64,000 nt of DNA from Streptomyces sp. SW4. GTDB taxonomy: Bacteria; Actinomycetota; Actinomycetes; Streptomycetales; Streptomycetaceae. The stretch covers positions 1,302,001 to 1,366,000 of the forward strand of contig QKWM01000004.1 in NCBI GenBank assembly GCA_003248315.1, written 5' to 3'. This document shows positions 46,872-56,806 of this stretch, in pieces; position 1 is the stretch's first letter, and each line of letters starts with the position of its first letter. The notes beneath the pieces are model-generated. The model was not told the origin of the DNA, did not search any database, and saw nothing but the letters and a program-made list of their open reading frames with translations. A program made the translations under genes and the position numbers.

Positions 46872-46931
46872 GGGCGGTGGGCTGCGACGGCCGTACCGCG
46901 GCGGGAGCCGCGCGGCGGCGGTGAGAGCGGG

Positions 46932-46968
46932 GCGCGGGCGGGACCGGGGGAACGTGTCCCGCCCGCGC
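46932..46968. terminator. Bidirectional terminator hairpin
   Basis: GCGCGGGCGGGAC (46932-46944) pairs perfectly with 46956-46968 around an 11-nt loop, between the transpeptidase gene and the convergent sigma-module gene. Confidence 0.85.
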
Positions 46969-47065
46969 CAGGTGCACGAGCCGTGGGTACGGGGGAACCC
47001 CGGCTCGGTGCGACAGCCGATGACCAGTCGGCTCACTCAGTACTGCGCCGCGGCGCCGAAAAGTG

Positions 47066-48310
47066 TCACACCCCCGGGAAGAACTTTTCCGCGAACCCGG
47101 AACGCCGCAGGTCGGAGCCGGTGTCGGCGGGACGGAGGCCGGTGCCGGCGTGCACGGCGCGGGCCGGGCGGCTCGCGCGGCCCGGCCGGTCCTGGGCGCC
47201 GCGGGCCCGCGGGCGTGTGCCGGGGCCGTCGCCCGCGGCGTCGCCGCTTCCCGCCTTCTTGCCGCCCCTGCCCTTCTTGTCCCGGCCGCCCTTGTCCTGC
47301 CTGCCGCCGCCGTCGGTACGGCCCGTGCCGTCGGCCCGGCCGGTGCCGTCGTCCTGGTCCTTGTCGTCGTCCTCGTCCGTGCCGCCGCGGCCGTCGCCGC
47401 CCGACAGGACGTCGCCGGGCCGGGTGGCCGTGCCGCCGTCCTCGCCCCCGCGGCGCTCCGCGTCGGCGCCGGCCAGCAGGGCCTTGCAGTACGTCCACAC
47501 CCGGGCGGCGCCGCCGCTGCCGGCCGCGTCGGTGAGGGCACGCCGGCGCACCCGGTCGAGGTCCTTGCCCGCCCGCAGGTCCCGGCAGGCGGTGACGATG
47601 CCGTTGCGCCCGCCCGCCGAACGGCCCTCGCCGTCGCCGGTCGCGTCGCCGGTGGTGTCACCGGGCAGGGCGGCCGTGCCGTCGTCCGCCGTGTCCCGCG
47701 CCGTGCCGCCGGCCCCGGGATCGGCGGGGCCGGTCCGGTCGGCGGCACCGGGGCCGGCCGTGGTGGCGCCGGCGGAGCCCGGCACCGACGGCACCGGCGG
47801 CTCCACCAGCGGCTGATCGGTTCCGTCGGGGCTCACGGCGGCGGAGACGGACGCGCCGGGCGTGGGCTCGTCCCCGCCGAACGGCGTCGGCAGGACTCCG
47901 GTTCCGGCCGCTGCCGCCGCCCCGCCGATGAGCCCGACGGTCAGCGACGCGGCCAGCGCCAGGCGCAGCGGGCGCCACCGGCGCGGGGGCGCGGGGGCGT
48001 CGCCCGGGCCGCCGATGCGGACCAGCCCGGCGTCGCGGGGCCGGGCACCGGAGCCGTCGGCGAGGGCGGCGGGCATGCCGTCCCGCGCGTCGGCCCGCTC
48101 GGCGCGCGCCTTGCGGAACGCGGCCAGGGCGGCGGCCTCGCCGGGGAGTTCCTCGCTGGTCGGAGGGGGTACGGGGGTGAGGGCGGCGAGCGTGGCGGCG
48201 AGCCGTTCGGCCCGCTGCCGGGCCGCGGGGTCCACGGCGTCCGGTGAGGTTCCGCGCAGCAAGAGCTCCGCCGTCCTGCGGTCCAGCCACCTGTCCTGCT
48301 CGTCGGCCAT
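47066..48310 (-). CDS. Membrane partner (anti-sigma-like) of ECF module 1
   Basis: 414 residues, intact. A cytoplasmic N-terminus of about 110 residues includes an A-A-A-L-A-A-F-R-K-A-R motif. One membrane segment (L-A-L-A-A-S-L-T-V-G-L-I-G-G) follows, then a long Gly/Asp/Thr/Pro-rich outer region. In it stands a compact conserved piece with two cysteines: A-C-R-D-L-R-A-G...A-R-V-W-T-Y-C-K-A-L-L. The ATG overlaps the sigma stop (TGATG). No ZAS zinc motif is present, so the anti-sigma role is inferred from coupling, topology and the second module. Confidence 0.7.
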   Translation of the reverse strand: MADEQDRWLDRRTAELLLRGTSPDAVDPAARQRAERLAATLAALTPVPPPTSEELPGEAAALAAFRKARAERADARDGMPAALADGSGARPRDAGLVRIGGPGDAPAPPRRWRPLRLALAASLTVGLIGGAAAAAGTGVLPTPFGGDEPTPGASVSAAVSPDGTDQPLVEPPVPSVPGSAGATTAGPGAADRTGPADPGAGGTARDTADDGTAALPGDTTGDATGDGEGRSAGGRNGIVTACRDLRAGKDLDRVRRRALTDAAGSGGAARVWTYCKALLAGADAERRGGEDGGTATRPGDVLSGGDGRGGTDEDDDKDQDDGTGRADGTGRTDGGGRQDKGGRDKKGRGGKKAGSGDAAGDGPGTRPRARGAQDRPGRASRPARAVHAGTGLRPADTGSDLRRSGFAEKFFPGV

Positions 48311-48972
48311 CACATGTCCTTCTGCGTCCGCGCAACGCTTTGCGTCACACTCGCGGACGTCACCGCGCGCCCGCGCGGTTCTCGCGGCGCGGGCAGGGCG
48401 TCGAGCGCGCCCGCCGATTCCGGATCGTCGCCGATCAGCTCGGCCAGGCGCTTCAGGCCGCGGTGGGCCGCGGTGCGGACGGCGCCGGGACGCTTGCCCA
48501 GGGTCTCGGCGGCGGTCTTGGCGTCGAGGCCCACGACGACCCGCAGCACGACGGCCTCCGCCTGGTCCTGCGGCAGGCGGGCGATCAGCGACAGGGCGTT
48601 GCCCGTGGCCAGCGCCTCGATGGCCTCGCCGGCGGTGTCGGACTCGGCGGGCTTGCCGGTCAGCTCGGTCTCGTCGCCGCCGATCGCGGGCCGGCGTCCG
48701 CGCATACGGATGTGGTCCAGGGCGCGGTTGCGGGCGATCCGGGCGGCCCAGCCGCGGAAGCGGTCCGCGTCGCCGCTGAACCGGTCCAGGTCACGGGCGA
48801 TCTGCAGCCACGCCTCGGACGCCACGTCCTCGGCGTCCGGATCGCCGACCAGCGTCCGTACATACCCGAGCAGCCGCGGGTGCACCGTGCGGTACACAGT
48901 CCGGAACGCCGTCTCGTCTCCGTCCTGTGCCGCGCGCACCGCGGCGGTCAGATCCGCGTCGTCCCCCAGCAC
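48310..48972 (-). CDS. ECF sigma factor, module 1
   Basis: 220 residues, intact, from GTG 48972. Region 2: L-G-Y-V-R-T-L-V-G-D-P-D-A-E-D-V-A-S-E-A-W-L. Region 4: L-P-Q-D-Q-A-E-A-V-V-L-R-V-V-V-G-L and L-G-K-R-P-G-A-V-R-T-A-A-H-R-G. It is clearly paralogous to the sigma factor at 50743. A short variable tail follows region 4. It is the first gene of its two-gene unit. Confidence 0.9.
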   Translation of the reverse strand: MLGDDADLTAAVRAAQDGDETAFRTVYRTVHPRLLGYVRTLVGDPDAEDVASEAWLQIARDLDRFSGDADRFRGWAARIARNRALDHIRMRGRRPAIGGDETELTGKPAESDTAGEAIEALATGNALSLIARLPQDQAEAVVLRVVVGLDAKTAAETLGKRPGAVRTAAHRGLKRLAELIGDDPESAGALDALPAPREPRGRAVTSASVTQSVARTQKDM

Positions 48973-49439
48973 CCCGCGCGCCTCTCTTTGCGCCTGAATC
49001 TGCCTGGCTCCCCGCGGTGGTCCACCGCGGTCTGACGCGGGGGCACCGCCCTCCGCACTCCGGCGCGAAAGGCACGTTACGTCTTGAAACCGCTCCCCGT
49101 CCATGTCCCCTCGGATGGCCGTACAAGCTGCAACTAACCCGTGACGCTCAGGGGTGTGACACAAAACGCAGCGTCGGCGCTGTAGGTAGTACGGGCCGCC
49201 GCGCGGCCCGTGCCGCGCGACGGCCGGGGCCTCTCCTGTGGGGGGTGGCGGCCCCGGCCGTTGCCTTGGCGCCGCCGCCCGCCCCGGGCGCACCCGCGCA
49301 GCCGGCCGGCGCCCGTCCCCGCGCGGGCAGCACGGCCCGCACGCGGAGACCGCCGGCGTCAGCGCCGGCGAGGGCTCACGTACCTCTTCCCCGTCGCCCC
49401 CGGCCGGCGCTTCTGCGGCCGCGCGGGACGGGGCCGGCC
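48973..49439. other. Intergenic region between the two sigma modules
   Basis: No gene is supported. It holds the promoter region of sigma module 1 (minus strand, about 48975-49170) and a terminator at 49221-49260 for module 2. From 49300 to 49439 the sequence is C/G-rich and featureless. Confidence 0.5.
49221..49260 (-). terminator. Terminator of sigma module 2
   Basis: CGGCCGGGGCC (49221-49231) pairs perfectly with GGCCCCGGCCG (49250-49260); the loop is 18 nt. It lies 180 bp beyond the module 2 membrane-protein stop. Confidence 0.65.
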
Positions 49440-50746
49440 TCACCCGTTCCCGTCGGCGCCGCCGCCGTTGCCGTCTGAGCCGTTCCCGCCGGTCCTGCTG
49501 GAATCGCCGTTCCCGCCGGTCCGGCCGGTGTCGGCGCCCGGCTGCCCGCCGGAAGCCGGCTCCTCGCCCGTGCGCGGCTGCTCGCCTCCGCCCGAGGTCC
49601 CGCCGGAGCCCGGCTGTGCGTCCGCGTCCGCTCCGCGCCCGCCGCCGGTCTCCGATGCCCCGGCCCCGGGGTCGCCGGAGCCGCCCGCACCACCGGTACC
49701 GCCCGCGTCCCGGGCACCGTCCGCTCCACCCGAGCCGCCCGAGCCGCTGGCACCGCCCGAGCCACCGGAACCGCCGGCGCCGCCCGGGCCGCCCGGACGG
49801 TCCGAACCGTCGGGCCCGTCCGCGCCGCCCGTGTCGGCGGCCTCGCCCCTGCGGCCGGGCGCGGTCAGCTCCGCGCAGTACGCGGCGATCCGGTCCGCCC
49901 CTCCCGCGGCGTCGGCGAGTCGCCGCCACGCCGTGGAGTCGAGGGCCCGGCCGCGGCCGTCGATGTTCTCGTTCTCGTAGGCACGGCACCGTGCCTCGGC
50001 GTCCTCCGCGGCCGCGTCACGGCCGGGAGCGTCGGAGCGGCCCGCCGGGCCGGCCGGCCCACCGCCGGGGGACGTCCGCGGCGAGGCGGATCCGCCGGCG
50101 CCGGGCACGGTCCCGGCGGACGCGCTCGGCTCGGCCCGCTCAGGCTCGCCGCGCCCCTCGTCCGGGGAGCCGGCCGAGCCGATGGCCGCCACCGCGACAC
50201 CGCCCAGCGTGAGGCTGGCGAGGAAGACCGTCAGGGTGGCCCGGAGCGAACGCCGGGTGCGCCGGCCCGCGGCCGGCCGCCAGTCGTCCCGGCGCCTGGT
50301 GCGCGCCCGGTGGGCGCCGGCGTCGCGGGCGGCGCGGAAGGCGGCCACCGCGTGGGCCTCGCCCTCCGGGTCGACGGCGCCCTCGCGCACGGCCGCGGCC
50401 AGCACCGCCTCCAGGGCGGCCAGGCCGTCCACGGGACCGGAAGCAGAGGGGGGCGTACGGCCGGGCGCGGCCTCGGACGCGGGGGCGGGCGTCGGGCCGG
50501 GCGAAGGGCTGGGCGCTGCCTCGGACGCGGGGGCGGGTGTCGAGCCGGGTGCGGGGGCGGGCGTCGAGCCGGACGCGGGGCGGGCGTCGAGCCGGGCGCG
50601 ACCTCGGGTGCGGGGTGGTGCGCCGGGGGCGGCGCGGTGCGGTGTGTGTGCCGGCGGCCCGGGGCTCCGTCGTGCCTGTGCGGTTCACCCATGTCCGATT
50701 CCCGTCCGGCGTCCGTGTCCGGCGGTCCGCCGTCCCTCGCGTTCAT
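49440..50746 (-). CDS. Membrane partner (anti-sigma-like) of ECF module 2
   Basis: About 435 residues after restoring one base at 50577-50580. The N-terminus is acidic/His-rich, then S-T-P-A-P-A-type proline repeats (about residues 45-95), then a helix with A-V-A-A-F-R-A-A-R. One membrane segment (L-T-V-F-L-A-S-L-T-L-G-G-V-A-V-A-A) follows. The outer region has the same two-cysteine piece as module 1 (A-R-C-R-A-Y...D-R-I-A-A-Y-C-A-E-L). It ends in about 130 residues of Gly/Ser/Ala/Asp. The ATG overlaps the sigma stop (ATGA). Function inferred as above. Confidence 0.68.
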
Positions 50747-51463
50747 TCCGACTCCCCCAGCGTTCCGGGCTTCCCGGGCGTCACACCCGTACCGCCGAGG
50801 GCGCGGGCCAGCCGCCGCAGGCCCCGGTAGGCGGCGGTGCGCACGGCGCCCGGCCGCTTGCCCAGCACGCGCGCCGCGGCGGGGCCGTCCAGGCCGACGA
50901 CGACCCGCAGCAGCACGGCCTCGGCCTGGTCGCGCGGCAGTCCCGCACCAGGTCCAGGGCCCGCTCCGTGGAGAGGGACTCCAGGGCCTGGTCGTGGGTG
51001 CTGTGCGGCGCCGGCAGTTGCAGGACGTCCTGCTCCAGCGCCGCCGTCCGCGGCCGTACCCGCTGCCGTCGCAGATGGTCCAGCGCCCGGTGCCGGGCGA
51101 TCGTCGCGGTCCAGCCCCGGAAACCGGCGCCGTCCCCCTGGAAGCGGCCCAGGTCCCGGGCGATCTCCAGCCAGGCGTCGGACGCCACGTCCTCGGCGTC
51201 GTCGCCGACGATGCCCGCAGATAGCCGAGCAGCCCGGGCTGCACCAGCCGGTAGGCGACGGCGAACGCGGCCTCGTCCCCGCGCTGGGCACGCTCGACCG
51301 CGGCGCCCAGTTCCCCGTCGTACGCCTGTACGCGGCGGGGTTCCCCTCCCTGGCCCAAGACCGTCCTCGTTCGTACCGGTTCGGTTGGTGCCGGGCGCTG
51401 GTGCCCCGGCAGGTCGTGCGTCGGGCCCTGCGCACCCGGTCCGCGTCGACGCCCCAAGGTCAT
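50743..51463 (-). CDS. ECF sigma factor, module 2
   Basis: About 240 residues after restoring two bases (51214-51216, 50942-50944). Region 2: L-L-G-Y-L-R-G-I-V-G-D-D-A-E-D-V-A-S-D-A-W-L. Region 4: L-P-R-D-Q-A-E-A-V-L-L-R-V-V-V-G-L and L-G-K-R-P-G-A-V-R-T-A-A-Y-R-G. These match module 1 almost residue for residue. About 45 extra residues precede region 2 from ATG 51463; the true start is uncertain and may be GTG 51490. Confidence 0.85.
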
Positions 51464-51508
51464 CAGCGCCGTGGCGCACGGAAACGTCACAGCCGGCCGG
51501 GGCGGGCC

Positions 51509-51970
51509 TCAGGCCGGCGCCCGCCGTGCCCGGCCGTGCAGCGTCAGCCAGAAGGTCTGCAACGACTCCTCCGGCCCGCCCAGTTCGAACCGCTTGCGCA
51601 CCTTGCCGAGGGGGTTCCACACCCGCCCGTCCGGCATCCGCACCCCGACGGGCTGTCCGAAGAGGGCCCGCTGGGCGGCGTCGAAGTCCACCCACACCGC
51701 CCCGCCCCGGCGCACGAGCACCTCGCCCACGTACACGCCGAGCCCGAACAGCACCTCCTGCGCCCGTTCCGGCCCCGCCCCGCCCTTGCGCAGGCCGTCG
51801 ACCATGAAGTCGACCACGCGGAGGCTGGCCACGGAGTAGTCCAGCGGCAGCCGGTTGCGGGCCGTGACACGGGCGACGAAGGCCGCCGCGTACGACGGCA
51901 TCTCGCGCGCGTGCGCCACCCGCCCGTGCGCCACCCGTGCGTGCGCCACCCGCCCGTCCGCCCGGCCCAT
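51509..51970 (-). CDS. Hypothetical protein, paralogue A
   Basis: 153 residues, intact. GGAG stands at the right distance from ATG 51970; ATG 51901 is the alternative. The protein is paralogous to the one at 55128. Shared pieces are R-L-x-L-D-Y-S-x-x-S-L-x-x-V-D-x-M-I/V-D, G-x-Y-x-G-E-V and R-x-P-D-G-R-x-W-(N/D)-P. No enzyme motif is apparent. The longer start translates a 15-bp repeat as R-V-A-H-(A/G). Confidence 0.65.
   Translation of the reverse strand: MGRADGRVAHARVAHGRVAHAREMPSYAAAFVARVTARNRLPLDYSVASLRVVDFMVDGLRKGGAGPERAQEVLFGLGVYVGEVLVRRGGAVWVDFDAAQRALFGQPVGVRMPDGRVWNPLGKVRKRFELGGPEESLQTFWLTLHGRARRAPA
51911..51955. repeat. Three tandem 15-bp units
   Basis: GTGCGCCACCCGCCC, GTGCGCCACCCGTGC and GTGCGCCACCCGCCC follow head to tail at 51911, 51926 and 51941. 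They lie at the 5' end of paralogue A and keep its frame. Confidence 0.9.
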
Positions 51971-55106: not shown

Positions 55107-55130
55107 TGGGCGGGGATCCGTCCCCGCCTA
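55107..55130. terminator. Bidirectional terminator hairpin
   Basis: GGCGGGGA-TCCG-TCCCCGCC with one or two further pairs (55107-55130). It lies between the amidase gene and the convergent paralogue B, touching its stop codon. Confidence 0.65.
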
Positions 55131-55543
55131 CGGCAGCCGGGCGTTCCCGGTCATCGCGTCGCGGCACAGCAGCCGCAGGGAGCCGTGGCCGGCGAAGCAG
55201 CGGCGGGCCTCGTCGAAGGGGTCCCAGAGGCGGCCGTCGGGGGTGCGCACCCAGTGGTCGCCGCCGGTCGCCCACCACTCGGCGCCCGTCTGCCGGGCGA
55301 TCACCTCGCCCGCGTAGGCGCCGAAGCCGCGCAGCACCGTCTCCACGGCGGCCGTCGGCGCTCCCTCGCCCGGATGTCGTCGATCATCCGGTCGACGCGC
55401 CACAGGCTCTGCGCGGAGTAGTCCAGGCGCAGCCGTGCGCCCTCGCGCATCGTCGCCACCATGTCCGCGGCCCACCGGGCGGGCTTGGCCGCCGCCGAGG
55501 GCCTGGTCTGCTGTGCCGTCGTACCGGTCGTCTCAGTCGTCAC
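55128..55543 (-). CDS. Hypothetical protein, paralogue B
   Basis: About 138 residues from GTG 55543 after restoring one base at 55369-55371. Paralogous to the protein at 51509: R-L-R-L-D-Y-S-A-Q-S-L-W-R-V-D-R-M-I-D, F-G-A-Y-A-G-E-V-I, and V-R-T-P-D-G-R-L-W-D-P. The two genes lie on either side of the amidase and face it in the same direction. Soluble; function unknown. Confidence 0.62.
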
Positions 55544-55664
55544 ACCAGCAAAAGCGCTGCCGGGCGGCGATTCGTCACGGGGATCCGGGGGCTTTCCGCA
55601 ACCGGCGCAGGACCACCCCACGGCCACCCCGGCTCCCCCGCAGGACGGTCACAGACGCGGTCCG

Positions 55665-56218
55665 TCAGCCCGTGCCGCGCGCCCGGCGGGAGACGACCGC
55701 GCGCAGCACGCGGCGGCCCTCGGTGGTCACGTCCAGGGCGCGGCGCAGCCCGCTCGGGCCGTGTCCGGCGAGCAGTTCGAGCACGGTGACCTGCCGGCGC
55801 AGCTCGGCGGCGACGAGCGGGGACGCGTCCTGCGCGCCGCCCTCGCCGCGCACGTCGGCCGCGCCCGGGTCGGCGCCGGGGTCGAGGAGCCGGTGGATCT
55901 GGAGGGAGGCGACGGAGCAGGCGTCGGCCCAGGCCCGCAGGCCCGGGTCCGGCCAGGCGACGGGCGCGGCGGCCAGCATGCGCCGGGCGAGGTCGCCGGC
56001 CTCGTCACCGGACTGCGCGGCGGCGGGGAGGGCGGCGCGGGCCTCGTCGAGCAGCGTGCCCCAGGCCTTCGCGTCGCCGTCGGCGGCGAGGCTGCCCCAC
56101 AGGGGCGCAGCACGTCGTCGTCACCGCCCAGCAGGGGCACGCACCGATCCAGACAAGCCAGCCCGCTCGCGGCCAGCCCGCGCTCGTCGGCCTGCGCGAT
56201 CAGCTCCACCAGGCTCAT
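55665..56218 (-). CDS. Hypothetical soluble protein
   Basis: About 184 residues after restoring one base in the run at 56102-56105. It is helical and Ala/Leu/Asp-rich, beginning L-V-E-L-I-A-Q-A-D-E-R-G-L. No membrane segment, cysteine pair or known domain was recognised. It lies in a row of small minus-strand genes between the amidase and hexosaminidase genes. Confidence 0.55.
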
Positions 56219-56304
56219 GCATGCCTCCCATTTCGTGCCGTTTCGGCCCGCTCGCAGTCACGGAACCCGGACTTCCCTTTACTGCGTGCGACGGCTCGGG
56301 AGTG

Positions 56305-56806
56305 TCACAGCGGGACGACGCCCAGCCGGTCGAGGAAGCGGAAGAAGAGGTTTTCGGCCTGGGGACCGGGTTCGGCGGTGAGGAGGTCGACCAGCTCCCG
56401 CGGGTTCGCGTCGCGTCCGGCCTCGGCGGCCCAGGCGACGGCCCGGTCGGCCGCGTCGCGGGGGTCGAGGAAGTAGTCCTCCAGCGTCAGGCCCTCGTTC
56501 TCCGCGCCGAGGTAGCCGGCCATGGCGGCCCGCACCAGGCAGGTCGTCCACGCCCCGCTCTCGGGGCCGCCGCCTCCAGGACGACGCAGTCGCTGTCCAT
56601 GACGTAGCCGAACAGCGCCGGGGCTCCGGTCTCGTCGGCCAGGTCCCGCATGTTGCCGACGTCGCCGTCGGCGCCCGGGTACTCCCACACCTGCCATCCG
56701 TCCGGCGCGGAGGTGCGCCGCGTCATGCCCTCGGCGCCCGCCAGCGCGTCCAGTTCCGCGAGCGGCCGCTGCGCGCGGCCCACGACGAAGTACCCCAGTA
56801 GCCCAT
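56305..56806 (-). CDS. Hypothetical protein of the M-G-Y-W-G-Y-F type
   Basis: About 167 residues after restoring two bases (56563-56566, 56793-56796). GGGAG precedes ATG 56806. The restored start M-G-Y-W-G-Y-F-V-V is familiar from many Streptomyces proteins of unknown function. A W-Q-V-W-E-Y motif and an acidic C-terminal half follow. Soluble, with no enzyme motif recognised. Confidence 0.6.

Follow-up and report, generated by a model that had tools for sequence, protein, structure and literature searches.

How are two extracytoplasmic function (ECF) sigma factors controlled when each is encoded beside a one-pass membrane protein of an unnamed family? The question is raised by a 64,000-nucleotide stretch of the Streptomyces sp. 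SW4 genome (contig QKWM01000004.1, positions 1,302,001 to 1,366,000), the whole of which is called the window here. On its minus strand, four genes follow one another in the order sigma2, partner2, sigma1 and partner1 (Table 1). They represent a real sigma-partner system that is conserved, has a partner family without a name and is accompanied by a local promoter-like element that is unusual and well supported. We consider it probable that the whole is an ECF sigma with a membrane-anchored, non-zinc anti-sigma, in which the sigma drives the expression of its own brake in a narrow, self-limiting circuit. Gene order, domains, conservation, natural fusions and motif positions were computed and carry this reading.

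Sigma genes and membrane partners

A preliminary description of the sequence had proposed two paralogous ECF sigma genes, each with a one-pass membrane partner of a new type that lacks the zinc motif of anti-sigmas and shares an inner A-F-R-x-A-R helix and an outer two-cysteine piece. These features were all recovered. Both sigma genes lie on the minus strand and match Pfam Sigma70 domains. Sigma1 carries regions 2 and 4 in a short protein, as ECF (group 4) factors do (Sigma70_r2, expect value (E) 2e-17; Sigma70_r4_2, E 1.1e-11), and the region-4 fragment of sigma2 matches Sigma70_r4_2 (E 3.6e-9). The best NCBIfam match of sigma1 is ShbA, at 92.6 bits under a cut-off of 209, and the Pfam search found no SnoaL extension in sigma1. 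A quick tree of 70 rows splits 53 partner-tied sigmas from 17 other ECF sigmas of the same genome (SH-like approximate likelihood ratio test, SH-aLRT, 95), and the kin of sigma1 and sigma2 cluster with a support of 89. For the outgroup, 40 of the 45 other sigma matches in the genome were fetched, 20 of them scored and 17 were long enough. The tree is supporting evidence only, because this own-genome sample is small and the program issued a long-branch warning. SCO4864 and SCO4866 are presumably the S. coelicolor equivalents. SCO4866 is raised and SCO4864 lowered in the acid-shock sigma lists of one report (PMC2631018), and SCO4866 rises in germination according to another (PMC4367926); both were too thin to be used.

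Judged by sigma1, the nearest relatives of the locus belong to Streptomyces. Conservation was followed in 91 Streptomyces loci, comprising the best 80 of 429 confirmed sigma1 loci (all Streptomyces) and 11 loci of the same genus, and in a wider set of 47 fetched loci with the two-cysteine domain, nearly all from outside Streptomyces (the Streptomyces locus L162 was read and not counted). A sigma2 of more than 75 percent identity is present in 64 of the 91 loci.

In the window itself, module 2 (sigma2 and partner2) is broken. The intact sigma2 of a relative (L096) maps to three frames (51319-51215, 51215-50943 and 50940-50749), and the core of partner2 sits in a frame other than that of its start. 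With at least three frame breaks, module 2 might be taken for a decaying pseudogene and not for a product of sequencing errors, but we regard this as very unlikely. Partner2 is a single open reading frame (ORF) in 53 of the 64 sigma2-bearing loci of relatives, and the source genome (7.48 Mb in 4 contigs) has a completeness rating of 83.4 percent. Frame breaks are also common: 22 of the 64 window-matching ORFs of one relative (G007), some of these 64 being antisense shadows of others, are likewise split over several frames (9.8-51.4 kb). Indel errors in the assembly are therefore the likelier cause, and further analysis of module 2 was based on the copies of relatives. Another frame break is visible by eye at 55.1-55.6 kb, and gene calls in this assembly need care.

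The preliminary description had both partner genes overlapping their sigma genes at the start, which stands for module 1 and fails for module 2. A GTG one codon 5' of the partner1 ATG overlaps the sigma1 stop by 4 bases, and the 4-base overlap recurs in 82 of the 91 loci; the remainder are cut or masked loci or reflect start choices made by the script. With automatic start choice, the same overlap is found in 11 of the 53 intact partner2 ORFs and an overlap of any length in 15 of them.

The two partners share one layout. The HxxxCxxC motif of zinc-binding anti-sigmas (ZAS) occurs in none of 83 partner1, 53 partner2 and 49 wider ORFs. A loose regular expression for the inner helix matches 76 of 83 partner1 and 47 of 53 partner2 proteins, and one for the cysteine pair matches 76 of 83 and 52 of 53. 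The seven partner1 misses of the cysteine expression comprise two truncated copies (L063, L083), a diverged one (L060), one that retains both cysteines (L124) and three that were extracted in the wrong frame (L087, L098, L100). The pair usually provides the sole cysteines of the protein (exactly two in 63 of 83 partner1 and 38 of 53 partner2). The second cysteine follows the first by 30, 31 or 33 residues in partner1 and by 35 in 51 of 52 partner2 copies, and by 33 and 37, respectively, in the window. From the membrane helix to the first cysteine there are 107 residues in partner1 and 64 in partner2, and the C-terminal tails measure 139 and 144. The outer spacer is long enough to enter the wall; its role is putative. 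Low-complexity, variable spacers around a conserved core had also been described, and they are present. The proline stretch of partner2, one of the low-complexity stretches described, is N-terminal of the inner helix and the membrane helix and is therefore probably cytoplasmic; some of it can be read in the wrong frame only.

The inner parts of partner1 and most of its kin (alignment A6) give the consensus AERLLxG...LLxAAxxP...ELxGExAAxAAFRxAR before the membrane helix, of which partner2 clearly retains only the last part. In the source genome, the two partners alone score well with the A6 profile, in which partner1 is itself included, and the next match has an E of 0.01. The inner motif recurs in other families and in another class. 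In two natural sigma-partner fusions (L160, L229), ELADERVxLGAF follows shortly after region 4. Adjacency, the natural fusions and the element before the partner point to a predicted anti-sigma action, and a membrane anti-sigma family outside the zinc class is the simplest and best reading of the partner. The partner of L216 carries the inner motif and has the promoter-like element, but no sigma gene was found next to it; it is possibly an orphan brake on a distant sigma.

Neither partner1 nor the core of partner2 (from 50432 downwards) has a Pfam or NCBIfam match at E up to 1. The partner type is thus unnamed in the libraries searched, and it holds across genera and two classes. No paper on the sigma-partner system was recognised in the literature searched, which did not extend to the published ECF classifications. 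The partner family is new against these libraries and this literature, and the sigma group itself may already stand in a published classification.

The promoter-like element and candidate RNAs

An alignment of 92 sequences contains near-invariant long DNA blocks upstream of sigma1, and a bipartite element, GGTGTRACR-N14-GRCGCWGWA, was found. A position weight matrix (PWM) was trained on three places, namely the partner1 start, element A and element B (Table 1); all other places are outside the training. At a score of at least 14, there are 424 matches in the 91 loci (1.06 Mb) against 1 with the reversed matrix, and 162 of the 424 fall outside the training places. The window has six matches at 13 or above and the reversed control has none. 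The exact pattern GTGTGACA-N14-GRCGCWGWA occurs seven times, in 5 of 13 genomes and always at this locus, and the reversed pattern does not occur. The element also marks the junction between sigma and partner in the wider set, where 22 of 35 junctions score at least 13 and 16 at least 19, compared with none of 35 equal windows inside the sigma genes. An ATG starts 8 or 9 nt past the best 32-mer in 28 of these 35 rows. At this distance, transcription would begin on the ATG or right next to it. A search of 41 genomes with a pattern that assumed one set distance to an ATG gave no match.

Two structured stretches near the module are candidate small RNAs, and their expression is presumed from sequence. 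The hairpins of RNA A lie 3' of element A, and its identical 18-nt loop belongs to the second hairpin. In the stem of that hairpin, most deviating pairs are A-C when read on the minus strand and G-U when read on the plus strand, which favours a plus-strand RNA. RNAalifold, given 32 rows of which one (L060) was a wrong site, folds RNA A with 28 pairs, of which 7 have both sides changed in at least one sequence; the covariation term is small (-0.7 kcal/mol). The folding z is -5.1 for RNA A, near that of RNA B (Table 1), and only -1.6 for a 236-nt minus-strand stretch over element A. Rfam has no family at gathering over the whole window and none at E up to 1 over 48700-49500. A weak match of RNA B to the raiA-hairpin family (46957-47010, minus strand; 16.7 bits against a cut-off of 43.7) was judged to be chance. 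RNA B could equally be a terminator between two convergent genes.

The outer two-cysteine domain

A profile search with the two-cysteine piece, a check proposed with the preliminary description, recovered a domain of about 50 residues across genera and in a second class. Its cysteine pair is near-invariant, and its consensus is C-x-x-x-...-L-...-L-x-x-x-A-G-...-V-x-x-Y-C (alignments A1 and A2). At E up to 0.001, it is present in at least 74 of 394 genomes and at least 23 of 137 genera of the class, in at least 13 of 296 genomes across the phylum and in 2 of 3 genomes of another class; the phylum and class scans scored at most 22 and 16 candidates per genome, respectively, and their counts are lower bounds. 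The source genome has two convincing copies. The domain members tested have no convincing Pfam or NCBIfam match and, outside sigma parts, only low-complexity or weak ones. AlphaFold predicts three helices for the outer domain of partner2, with the cysteines in helices 1 and 3 (mean predicted local distance difference test, pLDDT, 72.3; predicted template modelling score, pTM, 0.50). A search for a known fold gave a best Foldseek E of 6.2, and in the PDB the best profile match, to an aminotransferase over 24 positions at E 0.054, was judged to be chance.

The 47 loci of the wider set contain 49 domain ORFs. Of these, 35 lie behind an ECF sigma ORF, defined as a sigma ORF on the same strand that ends at most 700 bases from the start of the domain ORF's stop-to-stop frame. 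Three are fused to a sigma (L160, L219, L229), and 11 are neither, as judged with a profile built from the kin of sigma1 and sigma2, which could miss a more distant sigma beside any of the 11. Partners of L155, L156, L158 and L206 have two or three tandem copies of the domain, and one ORF of L157 has two overlapping partial matches.

The preliminary description had suggested that the cysteine pair perhaps reads redox state or tension. A single near-invariant cysteine pair outside the membrane could be a redox or thiol sensor, whose oxidation or reduction alters the outer domain and releases the sigma. Such redox sensing is highly doubtful in view of the near-constant spacing within each family, the placement of one cysteine in helix 1 and the other in helix 3 of the model, and the occurrence of the domain in tandem and in a short, sigma-less protein that appears to be secreted. 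Exported cysteine pairs in small helical folds are usually structural. A structural disulfide would fit the pair in its predicted three-helix fold at least as well as sensing does, and appears the likelier.

The proposed circuit, its surroundings and known systems

The proposed circuit adds a presumed anti-sigma action, a disulfide, recognition of the element by this sigma, leaderlessness and RNA expression to the computed features. A short cytoplasmic helical stretch of the partner would hold the sigma. One membrane helix would be followed by a flexible outer spacer carrying a small domain of three helices that a disulfide probably closes. The outer domain would receive a signal or dock to the envelope, and the signal would free the sigma through a conformational change or proteolysis of the partner. 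The freed sigma would read a bipartite promoter, with TGTRAC as the -35, 17 nt, and CGCWGW as the -10, where the sigma gene ends or immediately after it, ahead of the start codon of the partner. The sigma would thereby make its own brake, perhaps from a leaderless transcript. Copies of the element also stand before sigma2, partner2, a hypothetical gene and the two structured RNA candidates in Streptomyces, and the circuit would be narrow and self-limiting. We advance more tentatively a stand-alone circuit whose chief products would be a leaderless brake, transcribed from a promoter within the 3' end of the sigma gene, and two small structured RNAs that carry the response, and an outer domain that is a new actinobacterial surface module, found also sigma-less, sigma-fused and in tandem.

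Several observations weigh against the circuit. When two mismatches are allowed in the element, scattered matches and control matches appear; the two-mismatch search of the source genome gave five matches, four of them at or near this locus, and one control match. Among the wider junctions, 13 of 35 score below 13, and the 35 are not independent cases, because many genomes of one family and three Streptomyces paralogues are included. Part of the conservation of the element at the sigma1 end may be driven by the protein, since the element overlaps conserved codons there. Recognition by this sigma is deduced from position and co-occurrence only, so the element might instead serve some other regulator as its operator, or some other sigma as its promoter, and be unrelated to sigma1 and sigma2. 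We find this unlikely. The element has a fixed spacing between an AAC/GAC-type -35 and a CG-type -10, which are the types found in ECF promoters, it recurs at the sigma-partner junction in other families, and it has no exact match elsewhere in 13 genomes.

On the protein side, no PDB sequence gave a convincing match to the inner profile (best E 1), and no known anti-sigma family was matched in Pfam or NCBIfam. AlphaFold was uninformative for a sigma2-partner2 chain read through the stop (mean pLDDT 49.9; helices only). The lack of a known anti-sigma family and the three natural fusions would also suit an activator, a chaperone or a membrane tether of the sigma in place of an inhibitor, a role that appears quite improbable. 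Membrane proteins encoded beside ECF sigmas are usually inhibitors, and a sigma-type promoter just before the partner fits negative feedback. With 11 domain ORFs lacking a sigma directly upstream, sigma control is not the only context of the outer domain. Two of them retain the inner motif (L157 on the minus strand, and L216), four (L159, L201, L224, L226) consist of membrane and domain parts without the inner motif, and L207 is short and apparently secreted; L205 and L212 are cut by contig ends, and L234 and L238 are weak or fragmentary. With these points counted, the self-limiting sigma-brake circuit is still the reading that we hold probable.

The system provides a searchable partner family for an ECF sigma group that is widespread in actinobacteria. 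The concrete promoter element makes the regulon predictable. Placing a sigma-type promoter between a sigma gene and the gene of its brake is a simple way to obtain pulse-like responses, and the RNA candidates on either side would be the first outputs to examine.

The genes around the module had been taken to indicate envelope control through a transpeptidase and an amidase. This regulon was set aside: in the PWM scan of the window neither gene is preceded by the element, and the transpeptidase lies outside the operon. The L,D-transpeptidase is next to the module in 83 of the 91 Streptomyces loci and convergent in 82; the 8 loci without it end 203-1647 bases past the sigma1 match. A functional link is possible because it is a constant neighbour. 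The amidase was seen in 33 of the 91 loci, all with sigma2, and not all loci reach that far. For the conserved hypothetical gene, a relative's copy gave no Pfam match over its first 140 residues. Two small genes that look alike by eye flank the amidase on the minus strand (51509-51970 and 55128-55627). DUF6278 is matched weakly, under the cut-off, by the first gene and by the second as it occurs in a relative, and in L068 and L070 a promoter-like element lies 6 nt before the start of the second DUF6278-like gene.

Table 1. Positions in the window of the sigma-partner modules, promoter-like elements, RNA candidates and predicted target gene
Feature	Position	Strand	Basis or remark
Sigma1, ECF sigma factor, 220 aa from inferred GTG (regions 2 and 4)	48310..48972	-	Pfam; 92-sequence alignment covering the GTG and the DNA before it
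Partner1, one-pass membrane protein, 414 aa from ATG, predicted anti-sigma	47066..48310	-	Pfam, NCBIfam, ORF analysis
Partner1 inner (cytoplasmic) part, sigma-binding candidate, ...AELLLRG...ELPGEAAALAAFRKAR	48092..48301	-	Profile A6, E 8e-20; itself a row of A6
Partner1 membrane segment, most hydrophobic 19 residues	47906..47962	-	Hydropathy 1.87
Partner1 outer two-cysteine domain (C-x32-C)	47459..47608	-	Itself a row of A1
Sigma2, ECF sigma, spread over three frames here, whole in relatives, uncertain start	50743..51319	-	Mapping of intact relative copy
Partner2, one-pass membrane protein, frame-broken between N-terminus and core	49440..50745	-	ORFs, relatives
Partner2 inner helix region (AVAAFRAARD)	50313..50459	-	Profile A6, E 1.8e-5
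Partner2 outer two-cysteine domain (C-x36-C)	49854..50015	-	AlphaFold, three helices; itself a row of A1
Element at 3' end of sigma1, ends 9 nt before partner1 ATG	48320..48351	-	PWM 30.3; 90/91 loci
Element A, between partner2 and sigma1, facing away from sigma1	49153..49184	+	PWM 29.5; 90/91 loci
Element B, end of partner1	47041..47072	-	PWM 30.3; 80/84 loci
Element upstream of sigma2	51462..51493	-	PWM 20.7; 58/62 loci
Element at 3' end of sigma2, before partner2, weak here	50756..50787	-	PWM 14.7; 47/62 loci
Element upstream of conserved hypothetical gene	56280..56311	-	PWM 24.2; 24/24 loci with that gene start found
Candidate small RNA A, two hairpins	49186..49264	+	18-nt loop identical in 86/90 sequences
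Candidate small RNA B, or 3' element ending in long GC hairpin	46925..47036	-	Aligned in 77 sequences; folding z -5.6
Conserved hypothetical gene (MSLVELIAQAD...), frame-broken by eye, predicted target	55665..56218 (lower end approximate)	-	Element upstream

The partners resemble class I anti-sigmas (ASDI; RsiW, RskA, RseA, ChrR), which have a cytoplasmic helical part, often one membrane helix, and a gene beside that of an ECF sigma. They differ in having no Pfam or NCBIfam match, no HxxxCxxC and no convincing PDB match, and in possessing an outer two-cysteine domain of their own. The absence of a zinc motif is shared with about 44 percent of ASDIs (PMC7406223). The class I domain is a helical bundle with one more helix that grips the sigma; for the partners, the low-confidence model of the read-through chain displays helices only. 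A second likeness is to RsdA and SigD of mycobacteria and corynebacteria, since sigma1 is SigD/ShbA-like. RsdA is also a non-zinc one-pass partner, and it is not known to have a two-cysteine domain. Membership in the RsdA family was rejected: neither partner1 nor the core of partner2 matches RsdA_SigD_bd (PF16751) at E up to 1. A scan of 21 genomes did not find this domain either, but it proves little because the control genomes also gave none.

The fusions resemble ECF48, ECF52 and ECF53 (SCO4117), in which sigma and C-terminal membrane part form one chain; the sigmas of the window stop before the partner. These groups are described with a zinc finger, and SCO4117 also with a carbohydrate-binding domain (PMC8999054). 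Unlike them, the fusions here lack HxxxCxxC and have a different outer domain. The promoters of ECF41/SigJ have the form TGTCACA-N16-CGTC. The element described here differs from them in its -35, TGTRAC, and sigma1 in having no SnoaL extension; the two share a bipartite -35/-10 arrangement, a similar spacing and the CG in the -10.

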